From Thioalkalivibrio sulfidiphilus HL-EbGr7 (GTDB lineage: Bacteria > Pseudomonadota > Gammaproteobacteria > Ectothiorhodospirales > Ectothiorhodospiraceae): 64,000 nucleotides of DNA. Positions 3,629-43,171 of this stretch are shown piece by piece. The notes under the pieces were generated by a model that saw nothing but the letters and a program-made list of their open reading frames with translations, was not told where the DNA came from and searched no databases. Each line of letters starts with the position of its first letter. The first letter of the stretch is position 1. The stretch is from contig NC_011901.1 of assembly GCF_000021985.1 (NCBI RefSeq), positions 2,924,501 to 2,988,500 on the forward strand, given 5' to 3'. The translations under genes were made by a program, and so were the position numbers.

Positions 3629-3702
3629 TGGCTGGGGGACCAGGATTCGAACCTGGGTTGACGGAGTCAGAGTCCGTAGTCCTACCGCTAGACGATCCCC
3701 CA
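3629..3702 (-). tRNA. tRNA-Gln (anticodon CTG)
   Basis: On the minus strand the sequence folds as a full cloverleaf. The acceptor TGGGGGA pairs with TCCCCCA, the discriminator is G, and CCA is encoded. The T arm contains GGTTCGAATCC. The anticodon stem ACGGA/TCCGT encloses the loop CTCTGAC, giving anticodon CUG, which reads CAG. A terminator follows directly. Confidence 0.95.
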
Positions 3703-37098: not shown

Positions 37099-37121
37099 GC
37101 GCTATACCAGTGGTATAGCGC
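37099..37121. promoter_or_regulatory. Palindromic operator candidate, copy 1
   Basis: The perfect dyad GCGCTATACCA-G-TGGTATAGCGC lies in the 146-base gap before the TIGR03761 gene. Its core TATACCAGTGGTATA recurs at 39034-39048 before the next transcription unit. Confidence 0.7.
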
Positions 37122-37237: not shown

Positions 37238-38026
37238 ATGGCAAACGAACCCCTGCAACTGAACCTCGGGTCGCTGCGCAGCGCGATGGCGTTGACGCTG
37301 CACACGCATCACGCCTCACGCATCTGGCACGGTCGCACGCCCGCCGAAGGCCGGCCCGGCATCATCGGCCTGAACGGCTTCATCTCCATCATGAACAAGC
37401 TCAAGCGCGGCGCCGAGCAGGACGACCCCTACTCGGACTGGTGGATGCTGCGCATCGAGGAAAAGATCGCCGACACCAAGACGCGCCTGCAAACGCTGCG
37501 CGAACAGGTTGACCAGGCGCTGGCCGACGTACCGCCCGCTCTCAGCCTGGGCGAGAACCTCAACGTGCAGCCGGTCAAGCTGCCCCTGTTCGTCAATTCG
37601 CAGTTGGGGTTCATGGCGGTCTACCTGCTGGCCGACTACGACGACCTAGCGCGGCGCCTGATCCTGGCGCATCACACGGCATTGATCGATCGCAGCACCT
37701 TGGAACGCTGGCTCAACGATGGCGCGCACGCGCTGCGCAGCCTGTTCTCCCTGGCCCAGCAGTACCGCTACTCCGGCACGACGCGCGATGACTTCGCGGC
37801 GAAGAACGCAGCAGCGCGCGCGGCATTGGAGAAGTTCGGCGAGCTGCCGACCGACGTGCTCGAAGGCACACGCCGCTCGCGCTTCGCGCCGCCGATCAAC
37901 CGCCGGTCATCGCAGGATGGCAAGCAGGAAAGGACGGATACCCCGAGCGCTGCGCCAACCGACGAAGCCACGGAAGACGACGCGAACGACGACGGCGCCG
38001 CATCCGATGAGGATGAGCCAGCATGA
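37238..38026 (+). CDS. TIGR03761-family ICE protein (PFL_4669 type)
   Basis: A 262-residue protein with the family core LNLGSLRSAMALTLHTHHASRIWHGR and GIIGLNGFISIMNKLKRGAEQDDPYSDWWMLRIEEK, and an acidic C-terminal tail (ATEDDANDDGAASDEDEPA). It is a conserved gene of the ICE replication/maintenance block, with unknown biochemical role. It overlaps the next gene by four bases. The upstream palindrome at 37099-37121 may control this unit. Confidence 0.87.
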   Translation: MANEPLQLNLGSLRSAMALTLHTHHASRIWHGRTPAEGRPGIIGLNGFISIMNKLKRGAEQDDPYSDWWMLRIEEKIADTKTRLQTLREQVDQALADVPPALSLGENLNVQPVKLPLFVNSQLGFMAVYLLADYDDLARRLILAHHTALIDRSTLERWLNDGAHALRSLFSLAQQYRYSGTTRDDFAAKNAAARAALEKFGELPTDVLEGTRRSRFAPPINRRSSQDGKQERTDTPSAAPTDEATEDDANDDGAASDEDEPA

Positions 38027-38574
38027 CGGAATCCACTCTCACCGACACACCGACACGCTTCACGCCGCTGGAACAGGCGGACTTCCAGCGCCTGGAACAC
38101 GCAGCCTACCTAAAGGGCCTTTTACAACCTTTTAAGGGTAAGGGACGTTTGGAGTCCTGGGCCAACCAGTGTGCGGCGCTGCGCGACGACCTGATCGTGC
38201 TGGCGCAGCGACGGGTGCTGCCCCAAGCACGCGGCTATCCCTTCAGCCTGCTCGGTGTGCAACTGGCCCAGCAGACCACTGGCGCAGGCACGACCTTTCT
38301 GCGCTGGCGCAATCTCGACCGTTCCAGCATGGGCGTCGCCTTGTGGGAGGCGCTGCTGGCCGATCCCGCGACACCGGCATCGCTGATCGACGACCTCTAC
38401 GCGATGGAGCTGCAACGCATCGCGCTGAACATGCAGATCAGCCTCACGCACAGCATTGCCCGCCAAACCCTGGACTGCGCCGGAAAGATGGCCCAGGCCG
38501 AAGCGGCTTACCTGCGGCGTATCCAGGGGCACGCCGCCTCGATCAACCCCACCACTTCCAAGGAGTCACCATGA
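38023..38574 (+). CDS. DUF3158 family protein
   Basis: A 183-residue protein of the ICE-specific DUF3158 family, with FTPLEQADFQRLEHAAYLKGLLQPFKGKGRLESWANQC at the N-terminus and a C-terminal helical region ending in RRIQGHAASINP. It overlaps both neighbours by four bases (PFL_4669 type and SSB), the mark of tight co-translation. Function is unknown; it is conserved next to ICE single-stranded DNA-binding genes. Confidence 0.85.
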   Translation: MTESTLTDTPTRFTPLEQADFQRLEHAAYLKGLLQPFKGKGRLESWANQCAALRDDLIVLAQRRVLPQARGYPFSLLGVQLAQQTTGAGTTFLRWRNLDRSSMGVALWEALLADPATPASLIDDLYAMELQRIALNMQISLTHSIARQTLDCAGKMAQAEAAYLRRIQGHAASINPTTSKESP

Positions 38575-38969
38575 GCACGCATTTCTTCGGCGAGGGCAAC
38601 ATCGGCTCTGCGCCAGACTATCGCGAGTTTGCCAACGGCAACGACGAGCCGCGCCGGCTGCTGCGCCTGAACGTCTACTTCGACAACCCGGTGCCGATGA
38701 AGGATGGCACTTTCGAGGACCGTGGAGGGTTCTGGGCGCCGGTGGAACTGTGGCACCGCGAGGCCGAACACTGGAGCACGCTGTACCAGAAGGGCATGCG
38801 CGTGCTGGTCGAAGGCCGCACCGTGCGCGACGAGTGGGAAGACGCCGACGAGAACGAGCGCGTGACCTTCAAGATCGAAGCGCGCCGGGTTGGCATCCTG
38901 CCGTATCGCGTCGAGGGTGTAACGCTGGGTGCCAAGGGGCAGGCCATGGAGCAACCCCACGACGAGTAG
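38571..38969 (+). CDS. ssb: ICE-encoded single-stranded DNA-binding protein
   Basis: A 132-residue OB-fold protein: HFFGEGNIGSAPDYREF, RRLLRLNVYFDNPVPMKDGTFEDRGGFWAPVELW, and GMRVLVEGRTVRDEWED. This matches the SSB type found in PFGI-1/ICEclc elements. Start is the ATG at 38571, overlapping DUF3158. It should coat single-stranded DNA during transfer or element replication. A gap with a palindromic operator follows. Confidence 0.87.
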   Translation: MSTHFFGEGNIGSAPDYREFANGNDEPRRLLRLNVYFDNPVPMKDGTFEDRGGFWAPVELWHREAEHWSTLYQKGMRVLVEGRTVRDEWEDADENERVTFKIEARRVGILPYRVEGVTLGAKGQAMEQPHDE

Positions 38970-39033
38970 CCGCTGCGCAGGATCGTGTGAGCGGCTGGAC
39001 CAGCCGCTCACCGTGCGCCAGTCGTGCGCGTTT

Positions 39034-39048
39034 TATACCAGTGGTATA
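39034..39048. promoter_or_regulatory. Palindromic operator candidate, copy 2
   Basis: TATACCA-G-TGGTATA, identical in core to the dyad at 37099-37121. It stands between ssb and the candidate defence pair, originally perhaps upstream of topB. Confidence 0.68.
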
Positions 39049-39176
39049 GCGCCATTGACGTCCATGGAGGGCCAATCGTCATGGACTTGAGCACTACTTC
39101 GATCTATAACTTGTTGTTTTTCCAATCTGTGAAATGGCTTGCCCCTAAGCCATCTTCCTAGAACGAGATAAGCAGC

Positions 39177-39959
39177 ATGATCGGAGTCAGGACTCGTTAT
39201 TCACTAGCTCAATTCCTTGAACTGCAGGAGCCCGCCGTGTGTGCCGTGATATTGGGCAAGTACGGCGTTCAGCACCTGTCGCTGTCGAGGGGGCAACTGC
39301 TGTACGACCTACTAAACACACTGCGCGGACTTGATGACCGCACGCTCATGCTGGCGCTGTCCGAGGTGGTTGCAACCACAGGCGATCTTCGGGCCAGAGT
39401 CAATCCGAAGTATCGGTTTGACGAGCGCATGCACGACCTGGCGCAGTGCCTGCTGCTGGACGGCTACATCATCCAGGAAAAGAAACTGGTCCAGACCGAT
39501 CCGTCGATTGCCGATGCCGCGCCCTTGGAAGATGACCTGGTTACGGCATTGCAGAACTCCGGCGCCCCCCGCGCGCAGGACATCATCGTCAAGATCAACG
39601 ACTCGGCCGAGGCATTCCGGGCGACGCCGCCCGACTACAACGCATCGCTCGTCAACGCCCGAGTGGCGCTGGAAACCCTGGCCGTTGACGTGGCCGCCCA
39701 TGTCGCTTCGCTGCAGCAGAGTCCCACCACCTACAACCCGTCAAAATGGGGCGAGGTACTTTCGTTCCTGCGCAGCAGCGGCGAGATCACGGTCGAAGAG
39801 GAAAAGGGGCTGGCTGGCGTGTTCGGTTTTCTGAGCCCTGGCGCCCATCGCCCGGTTGGCATCCCGGAAGACCAGATGACGCGGCTTGGTCGCTCCTTCG
39901 CGCTCAATATGTGCTGGTTCCTGCTCAAGAACCATCTCGCGCGAAGCCACCGGCCTTGA
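39177..39959 (+). CDS. Uncharacterised protein with Abi-C/HEPN-like C-terminal domain (first gene of candidate defence pair)
   Basis: A 260-residue soluble, mainly helical protein. The N-terminal half is novel to me. The C-terminal half (NARVALETLAVDVA ... KWGEVLSFLRSSGEITVEEE ... FGFLSPGAHRPVG ... LNMCWFLLKNHL) has the spacing seen in abortive-infection C-terminal and HEPN-like domains, although no unambiguous Rx4-6H catalytic pair stands in the usual place. It is followed 33 bases later by a DUF4917 gene. Both lie between ssb and topB, a spot not occupied in the ICE backbone, so they are cargo. Confidence 0.6.
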   Translation: MIGVRTRYSLAQFLELQEPAVCAVILGKYGVQHLSLSRGQLLYDLLNTLRGLDDRTLMLALSEVVATTGDLRARVNPKYRFDERMHDLAQCLLLDGYIIQEKKLVQTDPSIADAAPLEDDLVTALQNSGAPRAQDIIVKINDSAEAFRATPPDYNASLVNARVALETLAVDVAAHVASLQQSPTTYNPSKWGEVLSFLRSSGEITVEEEKGLAGVFGFLSPGAHRPVGIPEDQMTRLGRSFALNMCWFLLKNHLARSHRP

Positions 39960-39992
39960 ACTCACTGACTTCGATGCGCAAGGGAAAACGAG

Positions 39993-41018
39993 ATGCCGTT
40001 TGAAATCAGACCTTGGGAAGAAATCTCCAGAAGCTACGGATGCACGATCCTGCTCGGCAACGGCGCCAGCATTGCCGTCAGCCCGAGCTTCTCCTATGGA
40101 TCACTGCTCAGGCATGCCGTTGAACAGCGCTTCCTTCCCGACGACGCCCAACGACTGTTCCAGTTCTTTCAGACCAACGATTTCGAGTTGGTTCTTCGGA
40201 TCGTATGGCAGGCGTCGAACGTCAATCGGTCGTTGCAAATCCCGGACCACCGAACCCATGCCGCCTACGTGAGTCTCAGAGACTGCCTCATTCAGACAGT
40301 CCGCAACATTCACCCGGAATACGATCAGGTCAGCGCGCACCTGCCGAGCATCTATCAATTCCTGAAACGCTTCAGCACTGTCATCTCACTCAACTATGAC
40401 TTGGTGGTGTACTGGGTCATGACCTATGGCCTGGAGATCGAGGATCAGCATGCATTCAAGGATTGCTTCATAGGAGGCGGCGTCTTCTCCGACGACTGGC
40501 AGCGGTTCAGGCAGCCGATCGGCAGGGAGCGCTCGACCACACTGGTGTTCCATGCCCATGGCAGTCTTGTACTGTGCAGGAATTTGGTCGAGCAAGAACT
40601 GAAGATACACAACAGGGACGCTGGTCTTCTCGAAGCGATACTTCAGCTCTGGCAGAGTGAAAGCGTTGTTCCGTTGTTCGTGAGCGAAGGAACGTGGCAG
40701 CAAAAAGTCACATCCATCCAGAACAGCTACTACCTCTCCACGGTCTACAGAGAAGTTCTGAAGTCACCGCGGAACACTCTCGTTGTTTACGGCTGGGGAT
40801 TCTCCGAACAAGATCTCCATCTCTTGCAACGGATGAGTGGAACAGGGATCAATCGTGTGGCGGTGTCGGTGTTCCGAGGGGATCAGGCCTATTGCAACAG
40901 GGTCTTCCAGACGATCCGCGATACCTTGGGGTGGCACGTTGAGGTGGAGTTTTTCGACAGCGAGAGTCCCGGTTGCTGGATTCACGCTGATCAGCAGGGT
41001 CTGCGCCCGGTCCCATAG
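39993..41018 (+). CDS. DUF4917-family protein with SIR2-like motifs (second gene of candidate defence pair)
   Basis: A 341-residue protein. The order of motifs is that of a SIR2-like Rossmann fold: GCTILLGNGASIAVSP (residues about 16-31), FSTVISLNYDLVVYWV, LVFHAHGSL, and VVYGWGFSEQDLHLL. FVSEGTWQQKVTSIQNSYYL is a DUF4917 signature. SIR2-like proteins in phage defence hydrolyse NAD+ after infection. Whether this one keeps activity is not testable by eye. Its partner gene and location in an ICE cargo site support a defence role. Confidence 0.72.
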   Translation: MPFEIRPWEEISRSYGCTILLGNGASIAVSPSFSYGSLLRHAVEQRFLPDDAQRLFQFFQTNDFELVLRIVWQASNVNRSLQIPDHRTHAAYVSLRDCLIQTVRNIHPEYDQVSAHLPSIYQFLKRFSTVISLNYDLVVYWVMTYGLEIEDQHAFKDCFIGGGVFSDDWQRFRQPIGRERSTTLVFHAHGSLVLCRNLVEQELKIHNRDAGLLEAILQLWQSESVVPLFVSEGTWQQKVTSIQNSYYLSTVYREVLKSPRNTLVVYGWGFSEQDLHLLQRMSGTGINRVAVSVFRGDQAYCNRVFQTIRDTLGWHVEVEFFDSESPGCWIHADQQGLRPVP

Positions 41019-41155
41019 ACCTGCAAAGCCAAACACCGCATCCTGAACCCGCACAAGTTGGTGTCTGCTGCTGTCGCGTTGTTTGCTGCCGCATTCATTG
41101 CCCTCTGGGATGCTGACGATCATTCGATGACCGTCACGCACACTCAGGAGGCTTT

Positions 41156-43171
41156 ATGCGCGTGTTTCTGTGCGAAAAGCCTTCGCAAGGCAAGGACATC
41201 GCCAGGGTGTTGGGCGCCCGGCAGCGCGGCAACGGCTGCTACAGCGGTTCGGGTATCACGGTGACATGGTGCATCGGCCATCTTGTCGAGGCGGCACCGC
41301 CGGAAACCTACGGCGAGCAGTACAAGCAGTGGTCCATCGAGCAGTTGCCTATTCTTCCAGAGCGCTGGCGCATCGAGGTCAAGGCCAAGACCGCCGCGCA
41401 GTTCAAGATCGTGAAGCAGTTCGTCGCCCAGGCCGGCGAGCTGGTGATCGCCACCGACGCCGACCGCGAAGGCGAAATGATCGCGCGCGAGATCATCGAT
41501 CTGTGCGGCTACCGTGGCCCGATCCAGAGGCTGTGGCTGTCGGCGCTCAACGATGCGTCGATCCGCAAGGCGCTGACTCAACTCAAGCCGGGTGGCGAAA
41601 CGCTGCCACTGTATTTTTCCGCACTGGCCCGTTCGCGCGCGGATTGGCTGATCGGCATGAACCTGAGCCGCCTGTTCACGGTGCTGGGTCGGCGGTCTGG
41701 GTATCAGGGCGTGCTGTCGGTCGGTCGCGTACAGACACCGACACTGAAACTGGTGGTGGACCGCGACCGCGAGATCGCACGCTTCGTCTCCGTACCGTAT
41801 TGGACCATCGACGTCACGCTGTCCCACGCGGGCCAGTCCTTCGCGGCAAGCTGGATGCCGCCCGACGGCACCACGGATGCAGCCGGTCGCTGCCTGCAGC
41901 AGCCAGTGGCGCAGCAGGCTGCCGACCGCATCCGTGCGGGTCGTGAATCGAAGGTGCTGTCGGTGGAAACCGAGCGTGTGCGCGAAGCCGCACCGCTGCC
42001 GTTCGACCTCGGCACCTTGCAGGAAGTGTGTTCGCGGCAACTCGGGCTGGACGTACAGGAGACGCTGGACATCGCGCAGTCCTTGTACGAAACGCACAAG
42101 GCGACGACTTATCCGCGCAGTGACTCCGGCTACCTGCCCGAGAGCATGCTGGCCGAAGTGCCGACCGTGCTCGACGCGCTGCTCGCCACCGATCCCGGCC
42201 TACGCCCGTTGATCGACCGGCTCGACAGGACACAGCGCTCGCGCGTCTGGAACGACAGCAAGATAACGGCGCACCACGGCATCATTCCCACGCTGGAGCC
42301 TGCGAACCTCTCGGCCATGTCGGAGAAGGAGCTGGCGGTATACGCGCTGATCCGGGCGCACTACCTGGCGCAGTTCCTGCCGCATCACGAATTCGACCGC
42401 ACACTGGTGATGCTCGACTGTGCAGGGCAATCGTTACAGGCCGTCGGCAAACGGGTGATCGTGCCTGGCTGGCACCTGGCGCTCCCCGGCAAGGGGCAGG
42501 ATGCGGCGGACGACGAGCCGGCCCAGCGCAGCCAGATCCTGCCGCCGCTGGACACCGGAGCGCGCTGCGGTGTCCAGCAGGTCGAACTGAAGGCACTGAA
42601 GACGCTGCCCCCCAAGCCTTACACCCAGGGCGAATTGATCAAGGCGATGAAGGGTGTCGCCAAGCTGGTCACCGATCCACGGCTGAAGCAGAAGCTGAAG
42701 GAGACGACGGGCATCGGCACCGAAGCCACGCGCGCCGGCATCATCAACGGCCTGTTGGCTCGCGGCTATCTGGTGAAGAAGGGTCGCGCCATCCGCGCGT
42801 CGGATGCTGCCTTCACACTCATCGACGCGGTGCCGGCGGCGATCACCGATCCCGGCACGACGGCGATCTGGGAACAGGCGCTGGACATGATCGAGGCCGG
42901 CCAGATGACGCTGGACACCTTCATCAACAAGCAATCGGCCTGGGTCGCGCAGTTGGTTCAGCAATATCGAGGCACCGTCCTGTCGATCAAGCTGCCCGAA
43001 GGGCCGGCCTGCCCGGTATGCGGTGCGGCGACGCGCCAGCGCAACGGCAAGAACGGTGCCTTCTGGTCGTGCAGCCGCTATCCCGACTGCAAGGGCACGC
43101 TGCCGGCCGAATCCTCGACGGGCAGGCGCAGGGCTTCGCGCCAGCGGCGCGCTGCGCCCAAGGCATCCTGA
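41156..43171 (+). CDS. topB: DNA topoisomerase III of the ICE
   Basis: A 671-residue type IA topoisomerase. The TOPRIM domain opens with MRVFLCEKPSQGKDIARVLG and ATDADREGEMIAREII. The central domain contains LSVGRVQTPTLKLVVDRD, and the catalytic tyrosine is in KATTYPRSDSGYLPE. A C-terminal zinc ribbon CPVCGAATRQR ... FWSCSRYPDC is present. It decatenates DNA, presumably during element replication or transfer. It is about 20 residues longer than chromosomal TopB because of the zinc ribbon and is the ICE-type paralogue. Confidence 0.96.
   Translation: MRVFLCEKPSQGKDIARVLGARQRGNGCYSGSGITVTWCIGHLVEAAPPETYGEQYKQWSIEQLPILPERWRIEVKAKTAAQFKIVKQFVAQAGELVIATDADREGEMIAREIIDLCGYRGPIQRLWLSALNDASIRKALTQLKPGGETLPLYFSALARSRADWLIGMNLSRLFTVLGRRSGYQGVLSVGRVQTPTLKLVVDRDREIARFVSVPYWTIDVTLSHAGQSFAASWMPPDGTTDAAGRCLQQPVAQQAADRIRAGRESKVLSVETERVREAAPLPFDLGTLQEVCSRQLGLDVQETLDIAQSLYETHKATTYPRSDSGYLPESMLAEVPTVLDALLATDPGLRPLIDRLDRTQRSRVWNDSKITAHHGIIPTLEPANLSAMSEKELAVYALIRAHYLAQFLPHHEFDRTLVMLDCAGQSLQAVGKRVIVPGWHLALPGKGQDAADDEPAQRSQILPPLDTGARCGVQQVELKALKTLPPKPYTQGELIKAMKGVAKLVTDPRLKQKLKETTGIGTEATRAGIINGLLARGYLVKKGRAIRASDAAFTLIDAVPAAITDPGTTAIWEQALDMIEAGQMTLDTFINKQSAWVAQLVQQYRGTVLSIKLPEGPACPVCGAATRQRNGKNGAFWSCSRYPDCKGTLPAESSTGRRRASRQRRAAPKAS

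Follow-up and report, generated by a model that had tools for sequence, protein, structure and literature searches.

A SIR2-like DUF4917 gene and a predicted HEPN-fold companion as candidate defence cargo in the ssb-topB gap of a Thioalkalivibrio sulfidiphilus ICE

The gap between ssb and topB in an ICE of Thioalkalivibrio sulfidiphilus HL-EbGr7 carries two genes, referred to here as gene 1 and gene 2. With slightly better than even confidence, the locus is read as ICE defence cargo in which a SIR2-type suicide effector, gene 2, is combined with an interchangeable HEPN-fold companion, gene 1. The locus lies in a window of 64,000 nucleotides, by which the whole stretch of DNA that was analysed is meant, and its features are collected in Table 1. 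As the original prediction held, the two genes adjoin each other between ssb and topB. They lie on one strand, 33 nt apart, both frames are open, and the flanking genes match PF00436 and PF01131. The host genome is a single contig of 3.46 Mb and has one copy of gene 2. The G+C content is 61% in gene 1 and 55% in gene 2, compared with 64% in the DUF3158 gene and ssb and 66% in topB. Purifying selection acts on both genes in the pairs scored, with dN/dS values of 0.10-0.16 for gene 1 (seven of seven pairs) and 0.06-0.09 for gene 2 (four of five pairs; the fifth, with the copy in L028, had no usable dS). Because these ratios are low, gene 1 and gene 2 are not chance open reading frames. No sigma-70-like promoter was found at 38900-41250, and the same region has 2 terminator-like sites against 2.2 expected. 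The sole tRNA gene in the window is a tRNA-Gln (ctg) at 3629-3702 on the minus strand.

Table 1. Features of the ssb-topB region, in window positions.
Feature	Position	Strand	Description
DUF3158 gene, ICE backbone	38023..38574	+	PF11358, E 1.3e-87
ssb, ICE backbone, left border of the slot	38571..38969	+	PF00436, E 1.2e-12
Stretch non-homologous to the empty elements L080 and L081, holding both genes	38937..41051		blastn
Gene 1	39177..39959	+	260 aa; uncatalogued family, HEPN-like at about residues 127-256 in the model
Gene 2	39993..41018	+	341 aa; DUF4917 / PADLOC PDC-S21, SIR2-like model
topB, ICE backbone, right border of the slot	41156..43171	+	PF01131, E 1.4e-110

The ssb-topB gap is a recurrent cargo site. 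In blastn comparisons, the homology between the window and the elements L080 and L081 stops at 38936 and restarts at 41052, and thus 2115 bp of the window replace 209 bp in L080 and 216 bp in L081. The gap is empty in L080, L081 and L082, where it measures about 300-340 bp. In three more distant elements (L083, L084 and L085) other genes are found between ssb and the topoisomerase, which in L084 and L085 is a different gene, annotated as topA. These six elements were found by way of DUF3158 and not of gene 1; five came from the 15 plasmid records with DUF3158, and the sixth from G306, which apart from the host genome is the only one with DUF3158 in a set of 369 from the class. The slot had originally been described as normally free of extra genes, and this view was dropped after the comparison of the DUF3158-anchored elements, since the slot is empty in only three of the six. 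Moreover, gene 1 or a fragment of it lies inside the slot in 8 of 39 gene-1 loci (L026, L027, L028, L029, L031 and L034, with fragments in L047 and L048), and gene 2 is absent from seven of these eight. The DUF3158-ssb stretch had no match in the E. coli genomes searched, and no relative of DUF3158 was found among the viral contigs searched.

Palindromes are also present in the backbone. The exact palindrome TATACCAGTGGTATA occurs twice in the window, at 37103-37117 and 39034-39048, one site being ahead of the DUF3158-ssb operon region and the other directly past ssb. L027-L029 and the empty elements L080-L082 have related palindromes (TATCCCCAGGGGATA and the like) at corresponding sites. The palindrome is perhaps an operator of the ICE. 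In L029 (3084-4988) copies of the TATACCAGTGGTATA palindrome with similar following bases flank the gene 1 cargo, as if the cargo had entered between repeats, and a variant is also found in L027.

Gene 2 adds a member to a candidate family that is already catalogued. The DUF4917 signature that had been noticed in it proved to be a match to the full profile of PF16263 (593.7 bits with a cut-off of 28, E 1.2e-178, positions 1-311 of 311), and gene 2 also matches PADLOC PDC-S21 (413 bits, E 2.4e-124, positions 9-331 of 336). All four motifs of the SIR2-like order were located: GNGAS at residues 22-26, LNYDLVVYW at 133-141, FHAHGSL at 186-192 and YGWGFSEQD at 266-274. A structure model built from 14 sequences has moderate confidence (pLDDT 69) and is weakest at residues 24-34, beside GNGAS, and at the C-terminus. 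In Foldseek the only hits of this model with E<=0.001 were two chains of E. coli SIR2-HerA (E 8.0e-5 and 2.8e-4). A second structure comparison ranked SIR2-HerA, KomC (which we take to be a SIR2 protein), DSR2, SPARSA and ThsA above the sirtuins, the best match having a Z of 10.7 and an rmsd of 4.8 over 294 aligned residues. Z values of 7-8 are common background in such lists, and the weight of the fold assignment therefore rests on the Foldseek E-values and the SIR2-titled list. The model thus gives gene 2 a predicted SIR2 fold, as the motif order had suggested.

Residues N134, D136 and H189 are invariant in all 14 aligned gene 2 sequences. PMC11087589 reports that mutants of N133 and H171 in DSR2 no longer cleave NAD+; N134 and H189 of gene 2 are matched to these residues via motif order and not by superposition. 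According to a review, Sir2 and TIR defence proteins end in NAD+ depletion (PMC10952713). A search of the annotated phage collection with gene 2 gave no match. DUF4917 proteins are found in twelve viral-contig loci (L067-L078), with 40-57% identity to gene 2 in the best segment. Solved structures searched by sequence with gene 1 and gene 2 returned nothing useful. In the full-text literature, with most subscription journals and preprints outside it, no functional study of DUF4917 was found, one paper having a table entry, and PDC-S21 gave no paper.

Gene 1 belongs to a family, uncatalogued and predicted to have the HEPN fold, that lies below the cut-offs of the library releases scanned. The window protein had no family above cut-off in NCBIfam, PADLOC, PHROGs (scanned with window proteins only) or Pfam, and none of its 23 relatives had one in Pfam. 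Among sub-threshold Pfam matches, DMP19 appears in 2 of the 23 relatives (best E 0.0035), and DUF4145 (PF13643) scores 13.4 bits against a cut-off of 23.1 in the window protein (E 0.085) and reaches E<=1 in three relatives (best 0.021). The sub-threshold NCBIfam matches have E-values of 0.064 or worse. An Abi-C/HEPN-like C-terminal region had been proposed for this protein; the HEPN part agrees with the AlphaFold model, but Abi_C gave no Pfam match at E<=10. The model, built from 23 sequences, is confident (pLDDT 90.9), and the placement of the two halves of the protein is unsure because the pTM is 0.56. When residues 127-256 were compared with solved structures, HepT was matched with a Z of 10.9 (rmsd 4.0, 121 aligned residues), a value that helical bundles can also reach without kinship, by common arrangement. 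It was followed by the HEPN domain of sacsin (10.3), TM0613 (8.9), LsoA and AbiA (both 8.7), and then by rhodopsins at 7.8 and below. Foldseek ranked TM0613 first (probability 0.99, E 0.26). The C-terminal half is therefore assigned a HEPN fold as a prediction, to be read with the same caution about helical bundles. Neither Pfam nor the structure comparisons gave a recombinase family match or fold.

Gene 1 has two clusters of invariant residues, S220-x-G222-x-H224-x-P226 and R236-x-G238-R239. The window protein departs from the canonical Rx4-6H motif of HEPN RNases, as H224 is invariant and no Arg is found 5-7 residues before it; an Arg at this spacing is present in 3 of the 23 relatives (L032, L038 and L040). 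The 2013 HEPN survey (PMC3710099) describes some families that have the His but not the Arg, and suggests that where the canonical motif is missing, other residues may form the active site. Gene 1 is rare. It was found in 5 of 398 genomes of the phylum and 2 of 369 of the class, the window's own being included in each and some of the others being fragments. A search of 47 genomes in the window's own order returned only the window itself, and eight genomes in the order of G306 gave no match. In the same literature, most subscription journals and preprints being outside it, PDC-M68 gave no paper, and searches on HEPN and SIR2 combinations and on the ssb-topB slot gave none on gene 1 or gene 2.

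Gene 1 and gene 2 are optional to each other and do not form an obligate pair. Gene 2 is found in 10 of the 39 gene-1 loci from bacterial genomes, directly after gene 1 in nine and ahead of it in L028, and it is truncated in L018. In L014 (7682-9294) gene 2 is split by other DNA and the adjoining gene 1 is intact. This adjacency is not due to chance, because gene 1 is rare and DUF4917 occurs in 11 of the 369 genomes of the class. The two-gene system of the original prediction is borne out to this extent, in two arrangements, but a conserved pairing was not found. The 35 gene-2 plasmid records all lack gene 1, and the four with gene 1 all lack gene 2. Gene 1 is likewise absent from all 12 viral-contig gene-2 loci and from all 14 gene-2 loci of 10 genomes (flanks of at most 1.5 kb, several of the loci being weak or partial). 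Across the same four loci the synonymous divergence is 0.60-0.74 for gene 1 and 1.18-1.73 for gene 2, and with such different values strict joint inheritance is not suggested.

PDC-M68A and PDC-M68B are found ahead of gene 1 in eight of the nine loci in which gene 2 directly follows it (L013 was scanned, the other loci were assigned by blastp cluster). By rough gene calls, an 82-aa gene lies between PDC-M68A and PDC-M68B in seven of the eight. In a tree of 37 gene 1 sequences, from which broken and partial copies were left out, the eight PDC-M68-linked copies form one clade (99/96) and L028 falls in another. When only the gene-2 rows and the five remaining slot rows are compared, 22 rows belonging to neither group, the gene-2 label changes twice on this tree; one change could be a gain and the other a loss. 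Seven intact PDC-M68 loci are homologous to the window from gene 1 to about ten codons short of the gene 2 stop, and not upstream of gene 1. Gene 1 and gene 2 therefore moved without PDC-M68. Descent from one cassette explains most of the adjacency of the two genes.

The upstream neighbours of gene 1 vary between loci. In 21 of 41 loci the upstream gene or cassette was assigned to a known or candidate defence system, the scans (PADLOC, Pfam and NCBIfam) covering one representative per cluster and part of the neighbours; L003, L044, L047 and L048 were left out of the count as fragments or as cut at the locus edge. PDC-M68B is found upstream in eight loci, IetS in three, HmaC in two (L040, scanned, and L049, by cluster, both 480 bp from gene 1) and AbiEii in two (L039, whose gene clusters with the one annotated in L007, a locus with a gene 1 fragment). 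Abi-alpha (L036), a weakly TIR-like protein (L051) and DUF4917 (L028) were each found once. A SNF2-type helicase and a methylase precede gene 1 in L045, HNH with methylase and ATPase genes in L006, and GIY-YIG near a type II R-M unit in L005. A cassette with Hachiman HamA (L022 scanned) is divergent from gene 1 in L019, L022 and L023. Upstream genes outside defence include a molybdopterin oxidoreductase (L046) and, further up, integrases (L037); others are ssb itself (L027, L029 and L034), a HATPase protein (L031) and genes without a match. In L088, from the phylum sample, the gene before gene 1 is presumably HsdR-like, judged by eye, and a 232-aa gene after gene 1 in L088 (2311-3009) and L090 (2245-2943) is one that, also by eye, we take to be DUF3800-like. 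A gene of about 183-243 aa follows gene 1, in the opposite orientation, in L019, L023, L026, L027, L029, L039, L047 and L048. It occurs inside and outside the slot, and the L027 copy, which was scanned, had no Pfam match.

Gene 1 and its upstream neighbour share a strand in 37 of 41 loci, compared with 173 of 259 other genes of the same loci (p 0.0016), a statistic in which the loci are not independent and the ORF calls are rough. Errors of the ORF picker include an antisense frame for ssb at L029 and a missed gene 2 at L017. Downstream there is no bias, as the neighbour is on the same strand for gene 1 in 24 of 39 cases and for control genes in 186 of 265; on these figures the notion that gene 1 invariably ends its operon was dropped. 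In L019, L022, L023 and L039 the homology to the window is restricted to the coding region of gene 1, with 79-83% protein identity in the best segment, and gene 1 therefore changes partners over short distances.

How do other explanations of the locus compare with these observations? An obligate two-gene system, in which gene 1 would sense infection or restrain gene 2 and gene 2 would be the effector, is unlikely. It draws on an adjacency far above chance, on the movement of both genes without PDC-M68 in seven loci and on L028, which links the genes in reverse order. However, the plasmid records, the 26 further gene-2 loci without gene 1 and the unequal synonymous divergence speak against it. 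We think it very improbable that PDC-M68 (ATPase) modules end with gene 1 and that the window contains the tail end of one beside an independent DUF4917 gene. Although PDC-M68 genes precede most of the gene 1-gene 2 loci and the eight linked copies are a single clade, only 8 of the 39 gene-1 loci have PDC-M68, and upstream of gene 1 the window shows no homology to it.

Gene 1 might also be a mobile hitchhiker, or a factor in the movement of cargo, without a role in defence. Its recurrence in one ICE slot, the four loci in which only its coding region is homologous to the window and the integrases upstream at L037 would be consistent with this. Against it, gene 1 has no recombinase match or fold, is under purifying selection, lies beside defence genes outside the slot too and has a strand bias on its upstream side only; we regard a hitchhiker as distinctly unlikely. 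A broader suggestion is that the gene 1 family is a plug-in companion for unrelated systems (PDC-M68, IetAS, Hma, AbiE, Abi-alpha, R-M and DUF4917), with a non-canonical site made of SxGxHxP and RxGR, and that it serves them as a shared second-line toxin or as a brake on the partner. This can be put forward only tentatively, as a possibility of less than even likelihood.

In the preferred reading, defence cargo of the ICE, gene 2 and gene 1 would occupy the ssb-topB slot together and may be co-transcribed. Gene 2 is probably a SIR2-family effector with NADase activity, so that NAD+ would be its presumed substrate. Phage infection may trigger the destruction of NAD+ by gene 2, and the loss of NAD+ would then stop growth or kill the cell. 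Gene 1 would be a facultative companion whose defence neighbour differs from element to element and is gene 2 in the present one. Its most likely role may be that of a second-line toxin or a regulator restrained by its neighbour. With the active site lost or alternative, a role in binding or regulation is almost as likely.

With gene 2, a candidate defence family on which no functional paper was found gains a member carried by an ICE. Gene 1 matters more, since one small family accompanies at least six unrelated defence systems, known or candidate. Should gene 1 modify its neighbours, a component common to several systems is absent from defence annotation, and a single gene would allow the earlier idea of a coupling between immunity and suicide genes to be tested in several systems.

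Both proteins can be compared with known systems. Gene 2 matches DUF4917 (PF16263) and PDC-S21 over nearly its full length; the copies in all 35 plasmid records stand without gene 1, whereas the copy in the window is accompanied by it. The predicted fold of gene 2 is common to the SIR2 effectors (SIR2-HerA/Nezha, DSR2, ThsA, SPARSA and KomC), and the conserved Asn and His occur in matching motif order. Unlike these effectors, gene 2 has no HerA, TIR, argonaute or long sensor part, and its partner is a protein predicted to have a HEPN fold; pairwise identity in the structure alignments is about 8-15%. Gene 1 was set beside part of the HEPN families of the survey in PMC3710099. Two of them, c2405 and HEPN-T Parep1/8, resemble gene 1 in having the conserved His and lacking the Arg (PMC3710099). 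The comparison with c2405 is by description only, and that family is described with a fused N-terminal AbiTii domain, which Pfam did not find in gene 1. HEPN proteins coupled to R-M systems, such as PrrC and clades of the survey, likewise place a HEPN-type protein beside a primary defence (PMC3710099). Gene 1 differs from them in that the arginine of Rx4-6H is absent, no ABC ATPase domain was matched and several of its neighbours are not R-M systems. In the PrrC-PrrI model the HEPN-type protein is inactive under the primary system and is freed when that system fails; PMC3710099 and PMC3506569 propose a second line of this kind for HEPN genes that adjoin R-M systems. By analogy, gene 1 would extend the PrrC-PrrI model beyond R-M systems, with an active site that is lost or alternative.
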